Source: Terriglobia bacterium
Lineage (GTDB): Bacteria; Acidobacteriota; Terriglobia; Bryobacterales; Bryobacteraceae
Direction of reading: 5' to 3'
Length of the DNA: 64,000 bases
Assembly: GCA_021325175.1 (NCBI GenBank)
Contig: JAJPHS010000036.1
Coordinates: 1-64,000 of the forward strand
Positions 2,248 to 53,839 of this stretch are shown here, piece after piece. Position 1 is the stretch's first letter. The number at the start of each line of letters is the position of its first letter. The translations under genes were made by a program, and so were the position numbers. The notes under the pieces are model-generated. The model saw only the letters and a list, made by a program, of their open reading frames with translations. It did no database searches and was not told where the DNA came from.

Positions 2248-2892
2248 CTAAGCCATGTGCGCCAGCCGCGACCGGAGCGTTTCATAGGCCCGGAACAGCA
2301 GTGATTTCACCGCCGATTCCGAGCATCGCAGCGCCTTGGCGATCTGTGCGTAGTCGAGTTCCTCGTATTTGTGCATCATCACCGCCGCGCGCTGTTTTTC
2401 CGGCAGGGTTTCGATGGCCCGCCGGACTTCGTTCAGCTTTACGGCGTATAACAATTCCTGCTCTACCGTCGGCTGCCGGTCCGGCACCTGTCTTTCGGCT
2501 CCGTCCAGCAGCTCCTCATTCAAACTTTCCTGGCTTTTTTCCTTCTTACCGTCGCGAATCCAGTTGAGCGCCAGATGAGTGGCGATGCGAAACAGCCAGG
2601 TGGTGAATTTCGCGGTCGGCTCATAGGTGGCGCGGCTTCGATAAACACGCAGGAAAACTTCCTGCGCCAGCTCTTCCGATACCGCCTGATTCTGAACCAT
2701 CCGGTACAAAAAATGTACGACCGGGGCGCGATGCCGTTCCAACAATAACGCGAAACTGGTTTCATCGCCCTCGCGGACGCGCAGCATCAGCTCGGCGTCG
2801 CGTTCCAGGGCGGCAACTGCCTCCATACCCTTCTTAACCCTAGGACTGGTGGAAGGTTGCGCCTCGCCGGCGCCAATGCGCGGCTTACTCAC
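2248..2892 (-). CDS. ECF-type RNA polymerase sigma factor
   Basis: A 214-residue sigma-70 family protein. Region 2 is seen at about residues 45-112 (FALLLERHRAPVVHFLYRMV, SEELAQEVFLRVYR, TWLFRIATHLALN) and the region 4 helix-turn-helix at about 158-208 (LPEKQRAAVMMHKYEELDY, IAKALRCSESAVKSLLF). No region 3 is present, which defines an ECF factor. The start is GTG 2892, overlapping the end of gpsA by 8 bases (GTGAGTAA), so it appears translationally coupled to gpsA; a downstream ATG (MEAV) is possible. The adjacent zinc-finger anti-sigma gene makes the pair a sigma/anti-sigma module. Placement inside a phospholipid-synthesis operon is unusual and suggests envelope homeostasis. Confidence 0.93.
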   Translation of the reverse strand: MSKPRIGAGEAQPSTSPRVKKGMEAVAALERDAELMLRVREGDETSFALLLERHRAPVVHFLYRMVQNQAVSEELAQEVFLRVYRSRATYEPTAKFTTWLFRIATHLALNWIRDGKKEKSQESLNEELLDGAERQVPDRQPTVEQELLYAVKLNEVRRAIETLPEKQRAAVMMHKYEELDYAQIAKALRCSESAVKSLLFRAYETLRSRLAHMA

Positions 2893-3871
2893 TCTTGAGC
2901 GACCGCTCCATCAGATCGCGGAGCGCCTCCCGCGGACTCTTCCCGCAATGCAAAACCGCGTGCATTTGATGAATAATCGGCAGATCCACGGCGAATTTAA
3001 TACCCAGCGCCACGGCGGCCGAACAGGTCTCCACTCCTTCGGCCACCATGGCCATTGATCCCACGATCTCCTGAAGGCTCCGCCCCTTGGCTAACTCAAT
3101 GCCTACCCGGCGGTTACGGCTTAATTCTCCGCTGCACGTCAGGACCAGATCGCCTAGTCCGGCCAGGCCCGCCAGCGTCCGCGCCTCGCCGCCCATGGCC
3201 ACCGCCAGACGCGTAATCTCCGCCAGACCGCGCGTGATCAGCGCCGCTAAAGTATTGTTCCCTAAGCCCAAACCGTGGCAAACTCCGGCCCCGATCGCGA
3301 TCACGTTCTTTAACGCTGCTCCGATCTCCACGCCAATCATATCCGAGTTCGCGTACAAGCGGAAGGAGGGTCCTGAAAACGCTCTCTGTACTGTCGTGGC
3401 CACCGTTTCCTCCCCGGATGCGATCACGATGGCGGCCGGCTCGCCGCGGGCGATTTCACGGGCGAACGTCGGTCCGGATAAAACCGCGATTTTCGCGCGA
3501 AAAGGCAAAACCTGCGCCATAACCTCGGAAACCCGCAACAACGTGTTCTGTTCCAGCCCTTTGGTCGCGCTGACGAAAATCATCGACGGGTTGAAATATG
3601 GCGCGGCCGCCGAATAGACGGCGCGCGCGTGGCGCGACGGCGTGACCCCCAGCACGATTCCGGCGCCGGCGGCGTCGCCGAGATCCGCCGTAACCTGGAC
3701 ATTTTCCGGCAGCCGGAAACCGGGAAGAAAAACGTCGTTCTCACGCGATCTATGCAGCCTTTCGGCCAGGTCTTTCTCGAACACCCACAGACGGATCTCG
3801 TCGAAGCGCGGCGCGAGCGCGATGGCCAGCGCCGTGCCCCAGCTTCCGCCTCCCAAAATCGCCAGCTTCAT
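2885..3871 (-). CDS. gpsA: Glycerol-3-phosphate dehydrogenase [NAD(P)+]
   Basis: GpsA reduces dihydroxyacetone phosphate to sn-glycerol 3-phosphate, the backbone precursor of membrane phospholipids, in the cytoplasm. The 328-residue product has the usual family length. The N-terminal Rossmann motif GGGSWGTALA is at residues 7-16; the segment SGPTFAREIARGEPAA and the catalytic-lysine region GAALKNVIAIGAGVCHGLGLGNN (conserved Lys in ALKN) and GLAGLGDLVLTC are all present. The ATG at 3871 overlaps the end of plsY by 4 bases, so the two consecutive steps of phospholipid precursor synthesis are coupled. The 3' end overlaps the sigma-factor gene by 8 bases. Confidence 0.97.
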   Translation of the reverse strand: MKLAILGGGSWGTALAIALAPRFDEIRLWVFEKDLAERLHRSRENDVFLPGFRLPENVQVTADLGDAAGAGIVLGVTPSRHARAVYSAAAPYFNPSMIFVSATKGLEQNTLLRVSEVMAQVLPFRAKIAVLSGPTFAREIARGEPAAIVIASGEETVATTVQRAFSGPSFRLYANSDMIGVEIGAALKNVIAIGAGVCHGLGLGNNTLAALITRGLAEITRLAVAMGGEARTLAGLAGLGDLVLTCSGELSRNRRVGIELAKGRSLQEIVGSMAMVAEGVETCSAAVALGIKFAVDLPIIHQMHAVLHCGKSPREALRDLMERSLKSE

Positions 3872-12143: not shown

Positions 12144-12767
12144 TCACATCGGCGGAACGCCGCGCTCGCCGGATTTCCGGTTCAAGGGCGGATAGTCCAA
12201 CACCTGCTTCAAGGCCGCGGGATTGGCGTTGGCCACCACCATGGCGATCTCGCTGGCGCGATCGTCCAACTCGAAAGCCGGCGCGACCTGATGAATCAAT
12301 CCCCAGGCCAGCGCCTCCGGTGTCGAAAACACGCGGCCGGTGACCGCCAGTTCGGTCGCGCGGCGCCGCCCCAGGGCTCGCGCCACGGCGGCGAAGGCGC
12401 CTTCCTGCGATTTGCCCTCGCGAATCGCGGTCAGGCCGAAGCTGGTCCCCTGCGCGGCAATCGCCACATGCGCGTTGGCCACCAGCGCGAGTCCTCCGGA
12501 AATGGCGACGCCCTGCACGGCGGCGATGATCGGTTTGGAAACGCCGCATCCGATGGAAAACAGGGCATCGTCGTCCGGCTCGGCCGCGGCGCAAAACACC
12601 TGGCCGTCGGCTTCAAGCAGAATCGCGCCAATCGCCGGATCGGCATCCGCGTTCCGCATTTCGCGCAGCAGCTCGCGGCAGGCCCAAGCATCCAGCGCGT
12701 TGCGCTTTTCCGGCGCGGCCAGAGCGATGCGGCACAACCGGCCGTCCTGCTCGATCCGGAGCGTCAC
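12144..12767 (-). CDS. Enoyl-CoA hydratase/isomerase family protein (short)
   Basis: The 207-residue product shows the crotonase fold start: MTLRIEQDGRLCRIALAAPEKRNALD, the oxyanion-hole region ILLEADGQVFCAAAEPDD and GVSKPIIAAVQGVAISGGLALV. Crotonases act on acyl-CoA thioesters (hydration, isomerisation or related steps). At 207 residues it is some 50 residues shorter than the usual 255-265; the C-terminal helices after LGRRRATELAVTGRVFSTPEAL are brief and end in YPPLNRKSGERGVPPM. The GTG start overlaps the carboxylase gene stop by 4 bases, so both are made together, consistent with a shared acyl-CoA pathway such as leucine/isovalerate or similar branched-chain catabolism. Confidence 0.85.
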   Translation of the reverse strand: MTLRIEQDGRLCRIALAAPEKRNALDAWACRELLREMRNADADPAIGAILLEADGQVFCAAAEPDDDALFSIGCGVSKPIIAAVQGVAISGGLALVANAHVAIAAQGTSFGLTAIREGKSQEGAFAAVARALGRRRATELAVTGRVFSTPEALAWGLIHQVAPAFELDDRASEIAMVVANANPAALKQVLDYPPLNRKSGERGVPPM

Positions 12768-14356
12768 AAGGTTTCTATCGCCAGATGCCGACGATTTCCA
12801 TAGGCCAGGGCGGCCTCGAGTGCGAAGGAAAGTACGCGCCGCGTTTCGAGCGGATCGATAATCGCGTCGACGTGGCCGCGCGCGGCCGCGTAGCGGGCAT
12901 CGAGCCAGCGCTCATAATCGGCGCGCGTTTGCGCGATCCGCTGCTTCAACTCCTCCGGGATCGGCTGGCCATTCTCCTTGTACCGCGCCAGCTCCGGCCC
13001 GTGGACGGCCTGGACCGCGGCATCTCCTTCCATCACGCCGATGCGCGCCGTCGGCCAGGCGAAGGTGAAATTGGGATCGAATCCCTGGCCTGCCATGGCG
13101 TAGTATCCCGCGCCGCTCGCATGATTGAGCGTCAAAACAATTTTCGGCACGGTCGCGCAGGCCATCGATTCGACCATCTCGGCGCCCGCGCGAATAATGC
13201 CTTCGCTTTCGGCTTCCGCGCCGACCATAAAGCCGGAGACGTCCTGCAAATACAGAAGCGGGACGCCGTGCCGTTCCGCGTTTTCGACGAAATAAGCCAC
13301 CTTGCGCGCCGATTCGGTGTAAACGATCCCGCCGATTCGGGGACCGCCGGCGGTCTTCAAAAATCCGCGGCGATTGGCGATCACCCCGATATTCCGCCCG
13401 TGCAGCCGCGCATTGGCGCACAGCATCTCCGGCGCGTGCTCGGGCTGGAATTCCAGATAATCCAAGCCGTCGACGATGCGCGCGATCACTTCCTCGACGT
13501 TGTACGGCAAGCGGTGATCGGACGGCAGCAGATCGTAGAGACCCTCGGCCGGCTTGGCGGGCGCGCTTCCGCGAGGAATTTCCGCCGGCGGAGGCAGCTC
13601 GCGCGCAAGCTGCCGAATCAGATCGATGCAAGCCGCGTCATCCTTGGCCGAATAGTGCGCGACCCCGCTGGTTCGCGTATGCAAGCTGGCCCCGCCGAGC
13701 GATTCCGCGTCCACCACCTGCCCCACCGCGCCTTTCACCAGATTTGGCCCGCCGAGCCCCATGAAACTGGTTTTTTCGACCATAATGATCACGTCGGAAA
13801 GCGCCGGCAGATACGCTCCTCCGGCGATGCACATGCCCATGACCGCCGAAATTTGCGGGATCTTCAGCTTTCTCCGCATCAGCGAGTTGTAATAAAAAAT
13901 TCGCGCCGCGCCGTACTGGCCGGGAAAAATTCCGTCCTGATAGGGCAGATTTACGCCGGCCGAATCGACCAGATAAACAATCGGAAGGCGATTGCGCATG
14001 GCGATTTCCTGCGCGCGCAAAATTTTGTGAATCGTCTCCGGCCACCACGCGCCGGCCTTCACCGTGGCATCGTTGGCGACGATCACGCCGGGACGCCCTT
14101 CGATGCGCCCCACGCCGGTGATCACGCCGGCCGCGGGCGCCTGGCCGTCGTAGCGGTCGTAGGCGATCAATAAACCAATTTCGAGCAGCGATGTTCCCGG
14201 ATCGATCAGCCTTTGCACGCGCTCGCGCGCGGTAAGCTTGCCTTCTTTGTGCTGCTTTTCGATTTTTTTCGCGCCGCCGCCGCGCCGGAGCTGATCTTCG
14301 AGATCCTGAAGCGAGGCGACCAGCGCGCGCATGTGGTCAGCGGGCGTTTGGGTCAC
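12764..14356 (-). CDS. Acyl-CoA carboxylase carboxyltransferase (beta) subunit, methylcrotonyl/propionyl type
   Basis: The 530-residue product is a full-length biotin-dependent carboxyltransferase, transferring carboxyl from carboxybiotin to an acyl-CoA. Visible are LTARERVQRLIDPGT, the N-terminal CoA-binding region with VIVANDATVKAGAWW, SAGVNLPYQ, GMCIAGGAYLPALSD, LGGPNLVKGAVG, SLGGASLHTRTSGVAHY and, in the C-terminal half, GFMVGAEAESEGIIRAGAEM and NHASGAGYYAMAGQGFDP. The segment DGIFPGQYGAARIFYY resembles methylcrotonyl-CoA carboxylase beta chains. The partner biotin carboxylase/BCCP is not in the window. The start is GTG 14356, 34 bases after moaD-like; the downstream hydratase overlaps by 4 bases. 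Confidence 0.93.
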   Translation of the reverse strand: MTQTPADHMRALVASLQDLEDQLRRGGGAKKIEKQHKEGKLTARERVQRLIDPGTSLLEIGLLIAYDRYDGQAPAAGVITGVGRIEGRPGVIVANDATVKAGAWWPETIHKILRAQEIAMRNRLPIVYLVDSAGVNLPYQDGIFPGQYGAARIFYYNSLMRRKLKIPQISAVMGMCIAGGAYLPALSDVIIMVEKTSFMGLGGPNLVKGAVGQVVDAESLGGASLHTRTSGVAHYSAKDDAACIDLIRQLARELPPPAEIPRGSAPAKPAEGLYDLLPSDHRLPYNVEEVIARIVDGLDYLEFQPEHAPEMLCANARLHGRNIGVIANRRGFLKTAGGPRIGGIVYTESARKVAYFVENAERHGVPLLYLQDVSGFMVGAEAESEGIIRAGAEMVESMACATVPKIVLTLNHASGAGYYAMAGQGFDPNFTFAWPTARIGVMEGDAAVQAVHGPELARYKENGQPIPEELKQRIAQTRADYERWLDARYAAARGHVDAIIDPLETRRVLSFALEAALAYGNRRHLAIETL

Positions 14357-33333: not shown

Positions 33334-36300
33334 TTAGCGGGCGACCAGCTCCGCTTCATTACGGAGCAATTCCGCCTCCAGTTCGGCGATCCGCTGCTCA
33401 ATCTGCGCCTCCCTCTGCCGCCGCTCGATGATCACCTCGCGATAGCGCCGCAGGAAGTAATCGATCGTTTCCACACGAATGCGGATCGATCCGGAGGGCT
33501 TGTTTTCGTCCAGATCCTTGAAACAGAAATAGGGCGTGCCGGAGCGCTCGATAATTCCCTCGATTACGCCATAGATCGGCGCGTCGTGGCCGCATTTAAA
33601 ATTGGAAACTTCAAGCGCCACCAGATTGGGATGCCGCGCGGTGAACTTCGCGGCCCACACTTTGTGATTCGTGCTGGCGGAATAGGAGTTTTTCCAAACA
33701 TCGGAAATATCCAGCGGATGCTTGATCACGCCGGCGCGAACCTCTTCGCCGAACAGCCGATCGAGCAGATCCTCGTCCATCGGCAGAGTGCTCTGCGAAA
33801 AAATCGGATAACCGAGCTTCTGAAACTCCTCCATAATTTCGTGATTCAACCCCGGATCGTGATGATAAGGCCGGCCGAGCATCACGATGCCGATCCGATC
33901 TTCCCGCTCCAACTGGTCCAGTACTTTTCGAGCCTGTTTGCGAATGCCGGTTTCGTAATCTTCGAGAGCTTTGTACCCCGCCTCGATGGCGCGCTGATTT
34001 TCTTCAATCGAAAGACCCAGCACCGGATTCCAGGCCTTGTACATTTGATCGGCGAACAGCTTGCGGTCGGCGAAGTTCAACAGCGGGTCCATGTAGCGGA
34101 TGCCGTGCTCGGCGAATACATCGGACTCCTTTGTGAACGCGGCTTTGACAGTATTCGGGCAGGCCGTCACCGTCGGGCAGGCGTTGGAGCCTTGCAGATT
34201 CACCAGGCTGCTGTGCAGCACATCCACCATTGGAAAGAAAATAATGTTGAACTGCTTTCGCAGGCCCTTGAGGAAGATGAGATTGTGGACGTGCGCGATG
34301 CCGATTTTCGCCGGGAAACACGGATCGATGGCGCCGCGGCTCGATCCGGCGCGGTACAGCTCGCCGCTGGTGAAATCGGAATAGACGATATTTTCCGCGG
34401 CTATGCCGAGGCTTTGCAGATAAGCGTTGAACAGCGGCGCGTAAACGTAGTTATTCAAGACGCGCGGGATCCCGATCCGCAAATTGGGGCGCTGCTTCAT
34501 TCGCTCGACGCGCTCGCGCGCCGCCCTGGTCCAGGCGCGTGAGGGAATCGGATCGGCCACGATTTCGGTCTTGCGCATCTTGAAAGCGTCGTGCGCCGCG
34601 ATATCGACGAAGTTCGGGTTGGCGTCCTTGATCGAATCGAGGCCGGCCTTGATGCCGCGCATATCGTTGACGTCCTCGACCGTTCCCTTTTCGCAGGTCG
34701 CGATGATCAGCCGCTGCTCGCCCGCGCGCAGCGGCACTTTCGATACCTTGCCGAGCGAAACAAAATCGCCCGATCCCGTGTGAATATCGATAAACGTGCG
34801 CAGGCAGTTGTTTTTGCAAAAATTGCAGCGGGTATCTTCGTTGCGCGTGGTGCGATACGTGATATTGCGCACCGCATCCAGCCCGATAAACGTCGTTTGC
34901 CGGCCTTTTCGCCACAGGCGAAGCGCCTCGATGGCCGCTCCAATGGCGCCCGATTCGCCGCAGTGTTCGTGAACGATGATTTCCGGCTGCTTTCCGGCCG
35001 CGCGGAAACTGGAGCGGATAAAATCCACTTCCGCCTTCACCACCGCCAAATTGTTCTGCGTTCCGCCTTGCAGAACGAAACGCGATCCGAGGGCCGCCAG
35101 ATTCGGAATGCTCGCGACATAGAGAAAAACATTTTTTGGCAGCACCGCCGCCAGACCGGCCAGAATCTCCTCTGCGCGCCAGCCCTGCCTTTGAAAATTC
35201 ACGATATCGGACTGCATGAACACCGCGCAGCCGTATCCGAAAACGGGCATCGTTTCCGCCGAAAATGCGATATCGGCGTACTGCTCGACCTTCAATCCGA
35301 AGCCTTCCGCCGTCGATTGCAAAAAATATCCGTTGCCGGCCGAGCACTGCGTGTTCAATTTGAAATCCTTCACGCGCCCGTCCTTAAGGACGATCAATTT
35401 GATATCCTGCCCGCCGACATCGACGATCACGTGCGGGTCGTCGTAGAAGCGCATCGCCGATTCGGTGTGAGCCACGGTTTCCACCAGCGCGACGTCCGCC
35501 TTCAACGTGTCTTTAAGGACATCCTTCGCGTATCCGGTTGTTCCGACGCCCAGCACTTCCATCCGCGCGCCCTTGCTTTCCACCTGTTCGCGAAGCGCCT
35601 CGAACATCTGCTTGGTGTCTTCAATCGGATTGCCATTTGAGAGCTGGTAGGCCTTCACTAACACGTCGCCGTTGGTCGAAACCAATACAGCCTTAGTCGA
35701 AGTCGAGCCGCCATCAACGCCCACGAAGCCCTTGACCACTTCGCCCGGATGAAATTCGGCGGGGATGAACTTCTTTCGCTTGTACGCTTCCTTGAACGCC
35801 TGGAGCTCATCCTCCGATTCGACCAGAGCTTTCCCGCCTGACTTCGCTTTCTCCTCCTGCCGTCCGACTTCGATGTAGTGAACCAGCCGGCTGGTCCCCT
35901 GATAGGCTCCGACGGAATCGTCTTCGTCTTTTCCGAATTCCACCGCTCCAATGGCCGCGAAATACTGCGCATTGTCCGGTACTTTGATCAGTTCCTCCGG
36001 TGTTGCGCCATCGGGTATTTCGACCTTGCGCTCCTTCCACATGCGCGGGATGTTCGCCTGCCAGGCTTCGCGCATTCCACGAATGAATGAATTCGGTCCG
36101 CCCAATAGCAAGACGTGCGGGCGCAGGGTATGGCCGCGAGTGAGAACCGTGAGATTTTGCAACACGATCGCTTCAAACAGCGAAGCCATCAACTGATCCG
36201 GAGGCGTGCCTTCCTTTTGCAGCCCGTTGATGTCCGTCTCCGCGAAAACCCCGCACTTACCCGCCACCTTGTGCAGCTTGATGCCGTGATAACCCTGATT

Positions 36301-36783
36301 GCACAATTCCTCCGGCGGAATCTTGAGCTTGGCGTTAATCTTATCGATCACCGCGCCCGTGCCTCCGGCGCACTTGTCGTTCATGGACGGGATTTTCTTT
36401 TTGCGCCCGCTCTCGGAATCCGCTTTGAAGACGATGATCTTCGCATCCTGGCCGCCTAACTCGATCACCGAGTACACTTCCGGATGCATCTTCTCGACCG
36501 CCAGGGAAACCGCCGTCACTTCCTGCACGAACTTCGCTCCAATAAGTTCCGCCAAAGTGCCGCCGCCGGAGCCGGTGATGAACACCCGCGAGTTTTTCTC
36601 ATGAATCCCCGCTTCGGTTTCCATCCGGCGCAGAAACTCCAGCACCTTCTCCGGCTGCTTGGTTTCGTGGCGCTGATAATCACGCCAGACAATCTCGTCC
36701 GTCTTTCGATTAACTACTACGGCCTTAACGGTGGTCGAACCGACATCGAGCCCGACGGTAAAAAGGCTGGTCTGGTTTTCCAT
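33334..36783 (-). CDS. Double-ASKHA acyl-CoA dehydratase activase fused to cysteine-rich DUF2229-type domains
   Basis: The 1149-residue protein has two activase (BadF/BcrA/HgdC) ATPase domains. The first (about 8-290) has GLDVGSTTVKAVVV, VIELGGQDAKI, cluster-binding Cys138 in NDKCAGGTGAV and Cys177 in GKCGVFAETD. The second (about 355-620) has VDGGSTSTKAVLV, DVGGQDIKLIVL, NTQCSAGNGYF and GYGCAVFMQSD. From about 640 the chain is cysteine rich (CNFCKNNC, SRGAIDPCFPAKIGIAHVHN, NACPTVTACPN, NFKCGHDAP) and resembles DUF2229 and the HgdB-type dehydratase component. Known single-domain activases hold one [4Fe-4S] cluster per dimer and inject an electron into a radical dehydratase. Partner gene 7 bases upstream. 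Substrate unknown. Confidence 0.88.
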   Translation of the reverse strand: MENQTSLFTVGLDVGSTTVKAVVVNRKTDEIVWRDYQRHETKQPEKVLEFLRRMETEAGIHEKNSRVFITGSGGGTLAELIGAKFVQEVTAVSLAVEKMHPEVYSVIELGGQDAKIIVFKADSESGRKKKIPSMNDKCAGGTGAVIDKINAKLKIPPEELCNQGYHGIKLHKVAGKCGVFAETDINGLQKEGTPPDQLMASLFEAIVLQNLTVLTRGHTLRPHVLLLGGPNSFIRGMREAWQANIPRMWKERKVEIPDGATPEELIKVPDNAQYFAAIGAVEFGKDEDDSVGAYQGTSRLVHYIEVGRQEEKAKSGGKALVESEDELQAFKEAYKRKKFIPAEFHPGEVVKGFVGVDGGSTSTKAVLVSTNGDVLVKAYQLSNGNPIEDTKQMFEALREQVESKGARMEVLGVGTTGYAKDVLKDTLKADVALVETVAHTESAMRFYDDPHVIVDVGGQDIKLIVLKDGRVKDFKLNTQCSAGNGYFLQSTAEGFGLKVEQYADIAFSAETMPVFGYGCAVFMQSDIVNFQRQGWRAEEILAGLAAVLPKNVFLYVASIPNLAALGSRFVLQGGTQNNLAVVKAEVDFIRSSFRAAGKQPEIIVHEHCGESGAIGAAIEALRLWRKGRQTTFIGLDAVRNITYRTTRNEDTRCNFCKNNCLRTFIDIHTGSGDFVSLGKVSKVPLRAGEQRLIIATCEKGTVEDVNDMRGIKAGLDSIKDANPNFVDIAAHDAFKMRKTEIVADPIPSRAWTRAARERVERMKQRPNLRIGIPRVLNNYVYAPLFNAYLQSLGIAAENIVYSDFTSGELYRAGSSRGAIDPCFPAKIGIAHVHNLIFLKGLRKQFNIIFFPMVDVLHSSLVNLQGSNACPTVTACPNTVKAAFTKESDVFAEHGIRYMDPLLNFADRKLFADQMYKAWNPVLGLSIEENQRAIEAGYKALEDYETGIRKQARKVLDQLEREDRIGIVMLGRPYHHDPGLNHEIMEEFQKLGYPIFSQSTLPMDEDLLDRLFGEEVRAGVIKHPLDISDVWKNSYSASTNHKVWAAKFTARHPNLVALEVSNFKCGHDAPIYGVIEGIIERSGTPYFCFKDLDENKPSGSIRIRVETIDYFLRRYREVIIERRQREAQIEQRIAELEAELLRNEAELVAR

Positions 36784-36789
36784 GTCGCC

Positions 36790-38568
36790 TCACGCAGCAG
36801 CGGTGGTGGCCACCGGCGATTTCCGCCAGAAGCGATTTCGTTTGTCCATGCGATCGCTTACGTGGAGCACGAACTGCGCCGCGGTTCCCGCAATCCCTGG
36901 CCGGTGAGGAACATGATAGAGCGGACGTTTCAGCTCGGGATGATCGTCGACAAAGGCTCGAATGTCTTCGAGTGACTTGCCGGTTGACTTCAGAACCGCC
37001 TCAAACTCAGCGCGGGCTTTTGCCTTGGCTTCGCCCAGCGCCATCTGAACGCGGCTGTGGGCATTCACCTCGCCTTCGCCCGATGTCTCAATCGGCAAAA
37101 AAATCATCTCCTTAAACCTGTTAATCACCGCAGACTGCACACCGTCGGATTGCGAAGACGGCATGCATCCGAATGGCTTTAGCGCCAGCACCATGTGACA
37201 GAGGTGATTCACCGTGTAATACACATTCTTGCCGACTTCCATATAGCCTTCGCCACCGCGGGCCAATTGATGATAGAAAGGATGCGCCAGCCGCACTAAC
37301 TCCTGTTGCGGGACCAGCCGATGAGTCATTCCGCCGAGCTTATCGATGGTCCGATGATAAAAGTAACTCCACATCGCCTCGCCGATATCGAAGGCCATCA
37401 TCTTTTTGCGGAACTTCAACTCATTCATGAGCCGCTTTTTCAGCTCCCAGCGGCCGGGATGAGGATATGGCCCATCCACGTCTTTTCGCTGCGCCAGACC
37501 TAATCCCGCGACGTGAAGCATATAGGCGACCCAAGTCGCGATGGGTTCCACCATCACCTGCGCGCCCTCGCGCTCCAGAAATCGGAAGATATGGAAATTG
37601 CCGTCGCCTTCCGTCGTCTGAGCCCAGAACTCGCCAGTGATCTTTACAATCGGTTTTACTTTGGTGCGATCGACGTCGATTTTGTTGATCCGGTCGCGGC
37701 AGGCTTCAAGGGCGCCGACAAACTCCTTGCCATAGATATGATCGTAAATCTTGCAGAGCACGCTGAGCGTGTTTTTCGCGATCTTATTTTTTCCAACCTG
37801 CCTGGTTAGCCATTCCGGGGCGTCCTCCATAAACTCAAACGGCTTTCTCTCGCGCAGAGTGCGGCATAACTCGCCCACCGCCTGCTCGAAAACGCGGTCA
37901 GCCTCGCCGGGGTTCGCTTCATAGGGGCGAATCTGAAAAATCATGTCATTGGTGACATCGCCGAGATTGAGGGCATTCAGCATCCCGAGCCCGAAGTTCA
38001 CGCTGAACTTCAGGCCTGGCTCGCCTGAAGCGGCCTTGATTCCATCGGTTTGCTGAAACAGCAATACGCGGAAATCGCCGAAGCCCGCGTTCTGAAGCGC
38101 GTAGCGATATTCGGCCTCATACATTCCGAAGCGGCACGGACCGCAGGAACCGGCGGTGAAAAATACGTAGTTATCGACAATCTCCTGCCGGCTGAGCCCT
38201 TGTGACTCGAGTTTTTGCAAATAGCGAACCAAGTTGCCGACTGTAAAATACGTCGGATTGCATTGGCCGTTGTTCCCATATTCTTTGCCTGCCTGAAAAT
38301 CCGCGACGCTGGCGAGCGGCAGGTTTTCGCAACGGTAACCGTTGCCCTGGAACACAGCCTTAATGAGCGCTTCGTGCTTCCAGGTCAATCCTCCAAACAG
38401 AATCGTGACTTTGTCACGTTCGTGCGCCAGAAACGATCGCTCCAGGGGACGCCGGAAGTGTTGCTGTGAAGCAAGACCCGCCTCGCGGCGTAGTCGGGCT
38501 TTTTCTTCCATAAGTTTCCGGCGAATCGTGTCCGTCGTTCCAGTAATGTTGACAAGAGTATCTTGCAC
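36790..38568 (-). CDS. 2-hydroxyacyl-CoA dehydratase-like (HgdB/DUF2229-type) partner protein
   Basis: I place the start at GTG 38568, which follows a strong GGAGG ribosome binding site; the frame runs further upstream to 38613 without one. The 592-residue product contains NNGQCNPTYFTVGNLVRYL, TAGSCGPCRFGMYEAEYRYAL, FSVNFGLGMLNALNLGDV, ITGEFWAQTTEGDGNFHIFR, and KPFGCMPSSQSDGVQSAV, each built around cysteines likely to bind an iron-sulphur cluster. These match proteins annotated as acyl-CoA dehydratase or CoA-substrate-specific activase components. It precedes the giant activase by 7 bases, forming a two-gene operon. The pair resembles an archerase system but the CoA substrate is not shown. 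Confidence 0.87.
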   Translation of the reverse strand: MQDTLVNITGTTDTIRRKLMEEKARLRREAGLASQQHFRRPLERSFLAHERDKVTILFGGLTWKHEALIKAVFQGNGYRCENLPLASVADFQAGKEYGNNGQCNPTYFTVGNLVRYLQKLESQGLSRQEIVDNYVFFTAGSCGPCRFGMYEAEYRYALQNAGFGDFRVLLFQQTDGIKAASGEPGLKFSVNFGLGMLNALNLGDVTNDMIFQIRPYEANPGEADRVFEQAVGELCRTLRERKPFEFMEDAPEWLTRQVGKNKIAKNTLSVLCKIYDHIYGKEFVGALEACRDRINKIDVDRTKVKPIVKITGEFWAQTTEGDGNFHIFRFLEREGAQVMVEPIATWVAYMLHVAGLGLAQRKDVDGPYPHPGRWELKKRLMNELKFRKKMMAFDIGEAMWSYFYHRTIDKLGGMTHRLVPQQELVRLAHPFYHQLARGGEGYMEVGKNVYYTVNHLCHMVLALKPFGCMPSSQSDGVQSAVINRFKEMIFLPIETSGEGEVNAHSRVQMALGEAKAKARAEFEAVLKSTGKSLEDIRAFVDDHPELKRPLYHVPHRPGIAGTAAQFVLHVSDRMDKRNRFWRKSPVATTAAA

Positions 38569-38708
38569 GAAGCCTCCTTCTTCTGAGTGTCTTTGCGTTT
38601 GATGGCGGAACATTCGTTGGGGTTTCGGGGCTTTCGCGGCGAAATAACTTTCGCCTTTTGGACGCTAATCGGGATGCAGAGGAAAGCGGCGCGAAATTTG
38701 GCTGGTGA

Positions 38709-52410: not shown

Positions 52411-52519
52411 AAAGTGTTAGTATATATTAGTCAGAAAAACCCCCTGCTGTTCGAAGTTAGTGGAGCCCCTGCGCTTTTCGCGCCAAGGTGCCGCAAATGA
52501 TGCTTTAGGAGCAAACGTC

Positions 52520-53839
52520 TTGCCCTCAGAAGATAAGGTTCAGATTGCACCCGCGAACGGAAAACTCGGGGTCTTAATCCCTGGAATTGGCGCCGTGACC
52601 ACCACATTTATCGCGGGCGTGGAGGCCGTGCGGCGCGGCATGGCCGTGCCGGTGGGATCGCTGACGCAACTCGCCACCCTCCGGCTGGGTAAGCGCACCG
52701 ACAATCGCACGCCGAAGATCAAGGACTTTGTTCCGCTGGCCTCGCTGGACGATCTGGTGTTCGGCGGCTGGGATATTTACGAAGACAGCGCGTATGAAGC
52801 GGCGCTCAATGCCGCGGTGCTCGATCGCGCGCAGATCGAGCAGTTCAAGGACTCGCTTTCGGCGATCCGGCCGATGAAGGCGGTTTTCGATCATGATTAC
52901 GTACGGCGCATCGATGGTCCCAACGTCAAGCAGGCCGCGACGAAAATGGAAAAAGCGGAGATGCTGATGGAGGACATCGCCAATTTCCGCAAGCAAAGCA
53001 ACGCCTCGCGCCTGGTGATGATCTGGTGCGCGTCGACCGAAGTATTTCATCGTCCGGCGGCGGTTCATCAGACGCTGAAGGATTTCGAATGCGGCCTGAT
53101 GAAAAACGATCCGGAGATCGCGCCCAGCCAGATCTACGCGTATGCCGCGCTGAAATCCGGCGTGCCGTTCGCCAACGGCGCTCCGAATCTGACCACGGAT
53201 ACTCCCGCGCTGCTCGATCTGGCGCGGGACCGCAACATCCCCATTTGCGGTAAGGATTTTAAGACCGGCCAGACGTTCATGAAGACGCTGCTCGCGCCGG
53301 GATTGAAGATGCGGATGCTGGGCCTCAACGGCTGGTTTTCGACCAACATTCTGGGCAACCGCGACGGCGAGGTATTGGAGGATCCGGGCTCGTTCAAATC
53401 CAAGGAAGAAAGCAAGCTCGGGGCACTGGAGCACATTCTCCAGCCCCAGCTTTATCCGGAATTATACGGACATTTTTATCATGCCGTGCGCATTAATTAT
53501 TATCCGCCGCGCGGCGACGCCAAAGAAGGCTGGGACAACATCGATATCTTCGGCTGGCTCGGCTATCCCATGCAGATCAAAATTGACTTCCTGTGCCGGG
53601 ACTCTATTTTGGCTGCTCCGCTGGTTCTGGATCTGGTTCTTTTTCTGGATCTGGCCCAGCGCTGCGGGATGCGGGGCATCCAGGAATGGCTGTCGTTTTA
53701 TTTCAAGTCGCCGATGACGGCGCCGGGGCTGTATCCGGAGCACGACATTTTTATCCAGCTCATGAAGCTGAAAAATACGCTTCGCTGGATGCGCGGCGAG
53801 GACTTAATTACCCATCTCGGCCTTGAATATTACGACTAG
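52520..53839 (+). CDS. ino1: Inositol-3-phosphate synthase (Ino1 type)
   Basis: Ino1 cyclises glucose 6-phosphate to inositol 3-phosphate with NAD, supplying inositol lipids and solutes. The 439-residue product starts at TTG 52520 with AGGAG at 52507-52511, as spacing favours; a longer open frame begins at GTG 52460. Family segments are GKLGVLIPGIGAVTTTFIAG, NSIFG-type FGGWDIYEDSAYEAA, MIWCASTEVFHRPA, GKDFKTGQTFMKTLLAPGL, NILGNRDGEVLEDPGSFKSK and SFYFKSPMTAPGL. The enzyme is of bacterial type and lies directly before an epimerase, suggesting a joint pathway. Confidence 0.95.
   Translation: MPSEDKVQIAPANGKLGVLIPGIGAVTTTFIAGVEAVRRGMAVPVGSLTQLATLRLGKRTDNRTPKIKDFVPLASLDDLVFGGWDIYEDSAYEAALNAAVLDRAQIEQFKDSLSAIRPMKAVFDHDYVRRIDGPNVKQAATKMEKAEMLMEDIANFRKQSNASRLVMIWCASTEVFHRPAAVHQTLKDFECGLMKNDPEIAPSQIYAYAALKSGVPFANGAPNLTTDTPALLDLARDRNIPICGKDFKTGQTFMKTLLAPGLKMRMLGLNGWFSTNILGNRDGEVLEDPGSFKSKEESKLGALEHILQPQLYPELYGHFYHAVRINYYPPRGDAKEGWDNIDIFGWLGYPMQIKIDFLCRDSILAAPLVLDLVLFLDLAQRCGMRGIQEWLSFYFKSPMTAPGLYPEHDIFIQLMKLKNTLRWMRGEDLITHLGLEYYD

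Follow-up and report, generated by a model that had tools for sequence, protein, structure and literature searches.

Described ester-converting systems and the gene pair of the window

Enzymes that act on the acyl esters of membrane glycerophospholipids have been described in several bacteria. The genes plsA and plsR of Clostridium perfringens form a two-gene operon, the products of which make plasmalogens in Escherichia coli; in Enterococcus faecalis, Lactococcus cremoris and Bifidobacterium longum the plasmalogen synthase is encoded by a single gene (PMC12838417). Orthologues of plsA and plsR, together with plasmalogens, have been reported in Listeria (PMC9702350). In E. coli, Ger of Thermotoga maritima and Ger of Desulfatibacillum alkenivorans produce alkyl ethers from sn-1 esters and from some sn-2 esters (PMC11150832, PMC13274423). 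PlsAR homologues of the acidobacterium Solibacter usitatus were earlier proposed as the makers of the ethers of branched glycerol dialkyl glycerol tetraethers (brGDGTs) (PMC10087280, section 4.4). A related gene pair was analysed in the window, a stretch of 64,000 nucleotides (contig JAJPHS010000036.1) from a Terriglobia bacterium of the family Bryobacteraceae. The pair (P0001 and P0002) is designated system B, and a second acidobacterial PlsA/PlsR-like system is designated system A. With a probability of roughly 0.75, the pair encodes a glycerolipid ester reductase that is driven by ATP and belongs, within the PlsA/PlsR-Ger family, to a sister clade centred on the Acidobacteriota. The family is known; the clade, the gene arrangement and a radical S-adenosylmethionine (radical-SAM) partner gene are new.

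As in PlsA/PlsR, two ASKHA domains, a four-cysteine domain and DUF2229 occur in one chain, and the partner, which resembles 2-hydroxyacyl-CoA dehydratase (HAD), is separate or fused. The same domains, in one open reading frame (ORF) or in two adjacent genes, were found in Listeria, Haliovirga, Acetoanaerobium, Collinsella and Fusobacterium (tblastn, plasmid records), and the split form is present in Fusobacterium animalis (975 and 404 aa). Over its full length P0001 showed 30% identity with the fused protein of Haliovirga (E 3e-150) and 31% with that of Listeria (E 5e-134); its identity with the Fusobacterium activase was 29% (E 5e-131). Against a profile of the window clade, the scores were 461-610 bits for five Pls-type proteins and 262-306 bits for nine system A proteins of full length. 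In the ASKHA domain tree, the window clade groups with the Pls-type rows in both the first-domain and the second-domain part, apart from system A (Paraclostridium was excluded from both protein trees). The window pair differs from PlsA/PlsR in that the partner gene comes first, the partner has 592 aa rather than the 404 aa of Fusobacterium, and the clade is separate at about 30% identity, with a radical-SAM-like gene linked in part of it. Ger (Tmari_0479 in T. maritima) is likened here by description, being PlsA-like with two activation domains and forming alkyl ethers (PMC13274423, PMC11150832, PMC8788747), whereas Ger of D. alkenivorans is one chain of 159 kDa.

The preliminary description of the pair had proposed that it acts on a thioester left unnamed. 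This proposal has to be revised, as the published substrate for the same architecture is the acyl ester of membrane glycerophospholipids, and we infer a membrane-lipid ester as the substrate of the window pair. PlsA/PlsR and Ger come close to supplying an established substrate for this very architecture, with the qualification that the window clade stands beside Pls and not within it.

Domains and conserved cysteines

Both ORFs are located where they had been placed (Table 1). The P0002 gene lies upstream, and its stop codon is separated from the ATG of P0001 by 6 bases (36784-36789), not 7. In P0001, Pfam gives two stretches of PF01869 and one of DUF2229; NCBIfam model TIGR00241 also covers two stretches. 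The cluster-type cysteine pairs, one in each ASKHA domain, are as first described, and C480 and C519 coincide with cysteines of 4eht, a dehydratase activator, when the sequences are aligned. Further cysteines are likewise present; they fall, however, into just two parts, a four-cysteine domain (653-697) and a HAD-like part with three cysteines, not into several cysteine-rich domains. C653, C656, C660 and C697 probably hold a cluster of their own.

Table 1. Features of the system B gene pair in the window (positions within the window)
Feature	Position	Strand	Remark
P0002, PlsR-like HAD/BCR-type partner, GTG start, 592 aa	36790..38568	-	
GAAGGAGG, ribosome-binding-site-like, 4 bases ahead of the P0002 GTG	38573..38580	-	read from sequence
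P0001, PlsA/Ger-like fused double activase with HAD-like part, ATG start, 1149 aa	33334..36783	-	
P0001 ~1-290, first ASKHA (BcrAD_BadFG) domain, C138 and C177	35914..36783	-	boundaries approximate
P0001 ~350-628, second ASKHA domain, C480 and C519	34900..35736	-	boundaries approximate
P0001 ~645-700, four-cysteine domain, C653, C656, C660 and C697	34684..34851	-	
P0001 ~765-1115, DUF2229 and following part, HAD/BCR-like fold, C822, C869 and C1064	33439..34491	-	
HAD, 2-hydroxyacyl-CoA dehydratase; BCR, class I benzoyl-CoA reductase.

Conservation was counted in the best 80 loci of the named genome collection, which come from 76 assemblies by accession prefix; after length filtering, 55 rows of P0001 and 79 of P0002 remained, window included. 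The P0001 cysteines C138, C177, C480, C519, C653, C656, C660, C697, C822 and C869 are present in 55/55 rows and C1064 in 54/55 (a single gap), and C103, C142, C145 and C468 of P0002 are present in 79/79. This conservation across the clade is far beyond chance. A cross-family alignment contained 10 (P0001) and 9 (P0002) rows of the window clade, 5 Pls-type rows and 9 system A rows; L033 and L123, both among the nine partner rows, come from one genome. All 11 conserved P0001 cysteines were found in the 24 aligned rows; Paraclostridium, as a 25th row, has no four-cysteine domain and retains the remaining seven cysteines. C103, C145 and C468 of P0002 were found in 25/25 rows. The 11 and 3 cysteines are shared with the proteins of Listeria, Haliovirga, Fusobacterium, Acetoanaerobium and Collinsella. 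The possibility, raised at the outset, that the cysteines would vary among homologues can be set aside, and three of the four partner cysteines are kept family-wide; C142 is not, being replaced by G in the more distant L033 and conserved only in most of the window clade.

The P0001 homologues of an Edaphobacter-like group (L038, L057 and L059) carry inserts, 24-28 and 57-70 aa long, that follow residues 673 and 678. These inserts lie within the four-cysteine domain and are rich in His, Cys, Gly and Ser.

Predicted folds and proposed reaction

P0002 alone and residues 632-1149 of P0001 alone were modelled with AlphaFold2, and both models are confident. The P0002 model has a pLDDT of 85.5 and is weak at, among others, the cysteine loops 140-149 and 469-473; the P0001 model has a pLDDT of 89.2. 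In a Foldseek search with P0002, the top nine rows were chains of HadC, BzdNO, MbdON and a double-cubane cluster protein (DCCP). VIA placed DCCP first for P0002 (Z 11.4, 4.7 Å, 254 residues), and its top ten rows for the P0001 part were all HAD, BCR or DCCP (Z 12.6-8.5, DCCP at 10.9), the next row having a Z of 6.5. As models, both non-activase parts resemble HAD/BCR/DCCP subunits. The kinship of P0002 and of the DUF2229 part with HAD rests on these model folds, because sequence profiles fail to show it.

In homodimeric HAD activators, each subunit contributes two cysteines to a single [4Fe-4S] cluster. P0001 may form a built-in pseudo-dimer from its two ASKHA domains, in which C138, C177, C480 and C519 would jointly hold one such cluster. 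Hydrolysis of ATP would lower the potential of the cluster electron, which would then pass, perhaps via a cluster at C653/C656/C660/C697, to a catalytic pair composed of the DUF2229 part of P0001 (C822, C869 and C1064) and P0002 (C103, C145 and C468). Both catalytic parts would resemble a HAD/BCR subunit and hold a cluster on three cysteines. At this pair, a phospholipid would have the carbonyl of its sn-1 acyl ester reduced, and dehydration would give either an alkyl ether, as with Ger, or a vinyl ether, as with PlsA. The cluster types, the electron path, the substrate and the product are deduced from the anatomy of the proteins and from their relatives. The initial assignment as an ATP-driven, low-potential electron injector of the BCR/HAD type is backed by the domains, folds and cysteine conservation. 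HADs, class I BCRs and DCCPs share the ATP-driven activase logic and the subunit fold with the window pair, whereas their activators are small and separate and their substrates are CoA esters or small molecules.

The presence of such a system in an organism with the other genes of an aerobic soil heterotroph had seemed puzzling. The puzzle is weakened: PlsA of L. cremoris and B. longum made plasmalogen in E. coli grown aerobically (PMC12838417), and a scan of 14 control genomes gave DUF2229 matches in Thermus, Deinobacterium and Lactococcus.

Two systems in the Acidobacteriota

The genome survey comprised 101 genomes, the window genome and 100 relatives. Genome sets were read by hand, with cut-offs of E <1e-50 for the partner and the radical-SAM-like protein and scores over cut-off for Tes, the brGDGT coupling enzyme; system A was recognized by weak partner matches. 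P0002 matched in 39/101 genomes at E 0.001, strongly (E <1e-50) in 32 and only weakly in 7. In a wider draw of the phylum, a match at E 1e-50 was found in 39/396 genomes. An activase homologue adjoins the partner gene in 74 of the best 80 loci, with a gap of at most 308 nt in 66 of these 74.

System A was seen in 19/101 genomes; 10 of these genomes supplied the 11 system A loci (L128-L138) that were examined. The weak P0002 matches at these loci are partners of about 420-480 aa, longer where the ORFs run on, and a P0001-like activase gene directly precedes the partner gene in 10 of the 11. System A has the same domains and cysteines as the window pair; it differs in having the activase first and the partner second (10/10 loci holding both), in showing 25% identity to the window system and in tracking canonical Tes. 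All 14 genomes with canonical Tes carry the system A partner signature, and 9 of them carry system B. System A is absent from the window genome, in which the P0002 search gave no second match. It is a new finding that the Acidobacteriota hold two paralogous PlsA/PlsR-like systems and that system B has a reversed gene order and a longer partner. The statement that a "PlsAR/Ger homologue" is present would merge at least two enzymes in this phylum.

Two Tes homologues, in addition to the PlsAR homologues, have been described in S. usitatus by Halamka et al. (PMC10087280). Zeng et al. described one Tes homologue (32% identity) in Edaphobacter aggregans, in which brGDGTs are formed under low oxygen (PMC8941075). 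A Tes-like protein scoring about 300 bits against NF045702 (ORFs of about 700 aa) is encoded in most of the 101 genomes, including contig C84 of the window genome, and may be Mss or another radical-SAM enzyme acting on lipids. Matches at this level do not discriminate, because 93/101 genomes match at E 1e-30.

Four assemblies, by accession prefix, contain two system B loci each (L065/L072, L068/L073, L041/L049 and L040/L078). At four other loci (L081, L090, L094 and L097), an ORF of 162-169 aa lies between the partner and activase genes; from the look of its sequence we take it to be VOC/glyoxalase-like, and it looked like a local insertion. One antisense ORF cluster among the neighbours (c3) was rejected as an ORF-calling artefact, since the reads shown sit opposite the activase.

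A linked radical-SAM/SPASM-like gene

Clustering of the neighbours of the pair identified a radical-SAM protein, about 430 aa long, that matches SPASM weakly. By tblastn, its gene was found near the pair in 24 of the best 80 loci (L034-L113), on the same strand in all 24. It lies before the partner gene in 16 of these loci, between the partner and activase genes in 3 and after the activase gene in 5; two of the 24 matches are partial (L061 and L070). In genome G088 the gene likewise lies between the two genes. It is directly upstream of the pair in L035 and L051, the nearest rows to the window in a FastTree tree of the partner (79 rows). In that tree the linked loci are confined to one half (22/50 vs 0/29), and well-supported branches force at least 7 changes of the linkage label. 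In three of the assemblies with two system B loci (L065/L072, L068/L073 and L040/L078), the gene occurs at just one locus of each two.

Strong matches to the radical-SAM-like protein were found in 17/101 genomes, 15 of which are among the 32 with system B (Fisher 1.7e-7, kinship uncorrected); no association with system A was found (5/17, p 0.3, kinship likewise uncorrected). Of 17 genomes in which the partner is 52-57% identical and the gene is not adjacent, 8 carry the radical-SAM-like gene, vs 2 of the 69 genomes without system B. The linkage and co-occurrence counts are not independent, because the 80 loci overlap with the 101 genomes. The radical-SAM-like gene is a well-supported partner gene of system B.

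The window genome carries an unlinked copy on another contig (G000:C132:15002-16243, L115), with 63% identity to the query and 78% to the copy of L058. All 26 copies have CxxxCxxC together with four C-terminal cysteines, and 25/26 have a fifth. No clear NCBIfam equivalog was found among the matches listed, and the best PDB sequence matches of the C132 protein are short matches to the radical-SAM core. An identification as Tes or Mss was rejected; by profile the C132 protein is not of the Tes type, because it scores only 26.8 bits, over NF045702 positions 92-209, vs 306.8 for the C84 protein. Gms, also considered as an identity for this protein, has a SPASM domain, CX3CX2C and over 420 aa (PMC11186832), and homologues of Gms in Acidobacteria have been mentioned (PMC11868695). 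A literature search that left most subscription papers uncovered gave no described link of a radical-SAM protein to PlsA or Ger, which does not prove its absence in print.

We tentatively suggest, as a possibility that is less probable than not, that in part of the Acidobacteriota the pair and a dedicated radical-SAM/SPASM-like protein form a three-protein membrane-lipid module, in which one part would make the ether and the other would subject the same lipid to a radical reaction not described so far, for example tail coupling, Gms-like cross-linking or methylation. If true, this would supply a missing step in the synthesis of ether or membrane-spanning (brGDGT-type) lipids in soil Acidobacteriota without canonical Tes, for example the window organism. 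The brGDGTs and related ether lipids of soil bacteria serve as climate archives, and their acidobacterial enzymes are unsettled (PMC13274423, PMC10087280, PMC11868695). For the ether step and a further radical step, the pair, system A and the radical-SAM-like gene offer concrete candidates that can be expressed, and a testable membrane-lipid ester takes the place of the thioester.

Points against the assignment and alternative readings

Several points weigh against the assignment as a glycerolipid ester reductase. P0002 matches no Pfam family at E 0.1 and none in the NCBIfam scan, a PDB profile search gave no significant relative for P0002 or the DUF2229 part, and the profiles of these two parts do not align with each other (hhalign probability 0.2). 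The Foldseek matches of P0002 have best E values of 2.8e-3 to 9.6e-2 with low TM-scores, none at E <=0.001, and single-domain B12-type folds are interspersed among its VIA rows from rank 2 (Z 9.4). For the P0001 part, two Foldseek rows fall below E 0.001, both HadC and weak (best 2.2e-4). The window clade lies beside the Pls-type rows and is not nested in them, in a tree that carries no support values, and orthology to Pls/Ger is unproven, the compared Pls-type rows excluding the validated Ger of T. maritima and D. alkenivorans and the C. perfringens sequences. Two activation domains are a reported tendency of Ger, unproven as a signature (PMC13274423); two PF01869 stretches also occur in Listeria, Haliovirga, Fusobacterium and system A, so this tendency fails to separate the groups. 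Canonical Tes tracks system A more than system B and is absent from the window genome. The neighbours of the window pair, an M50 peptidase and an ABC transporter, are uninformative on lipids.

A self-contained enzyme of the HAD/BCR type acting on an acyl-CoA appears unlikely. The PDB entries nearest to the activase domains of P0001 are activators of CoA-ester enzymes, and the predicted folds resemble HAD and BCR subunits, as this reading would have it. Relatives of the same architecture act, however, on lipid esters. HGD-D (PF06050), the subunit domain of 2-hydroxyacyl-CoA dehydratase and class I benzoyl-CoA reductase, was found neither in P0002 by Pfam nor in the window genome, which has no DUF2229 other than that of P0001 and one further, separate PF01869 match. 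No CoA gene recurs near the pair among the clustered neighbours of the best 80 loci. The lack of an adjacent acyl-CoA gene had been called striking; it is not, because an oxygen ester of a membrane lipid is the expected substrate.

The pair might also be a reductase that feeds low-potential electrons to the radical-SAM/SPASM-like protein, or acts with it, on a non-lipid substrate. This is suggested by the same-strand linkage in three arrangements, by the co-occurrence in 15/17 genomes and by the lack of a clear NCBIfam equivalog among the matches listed. It is nevertheless improbable: linked loci are confined to a single half of the partner tree, the pair has the cysteine set of lipid-ester reductases, and Tes, Mss and Gms are radical-SAM enzymes already placed within membrane-lipid pathways. 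The gene is moreover not obligatory for the pair, because 17 of the 32 genomes with the pair are without it.

A DCCP-like small-molecule reductase with a double-cubane [8Fe-9S] cluster would suit the high VIA rank of DCCP for both parts but is very improbable, as in each part three cysteines are kept family-wide, a number matching the three-cysteine [4Fe-4S] site of BzdO, DCCPs are described as homodimers (PMC11971306) and the sequence kinship lies with PlsA/PlsR.

Other genes

SMU_0438c of Streptococcus mutans, annotated as 2-hydroxyglutaryl-CoA dehydratase activator-related, was 2.2-fold up in a study of manganese transport (PMC6952196) and may be a Pls-type gene. Two phospholipid-related genes of the window are distant from the pair and encode a NAD-dependent glycerol-3-phosphate dehydrogenase (2885-3871, - strand) and a myo-inositol-1-phosphate synthase (52460-53839, + strand). 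Among about 20 window ORFs scanned, the sole gene of acyl-CoA type encodes a carboxyl transferase of the acyl-CoA carboxylase type (12764-14356, - strand), which is located about 19 kb from the pair.

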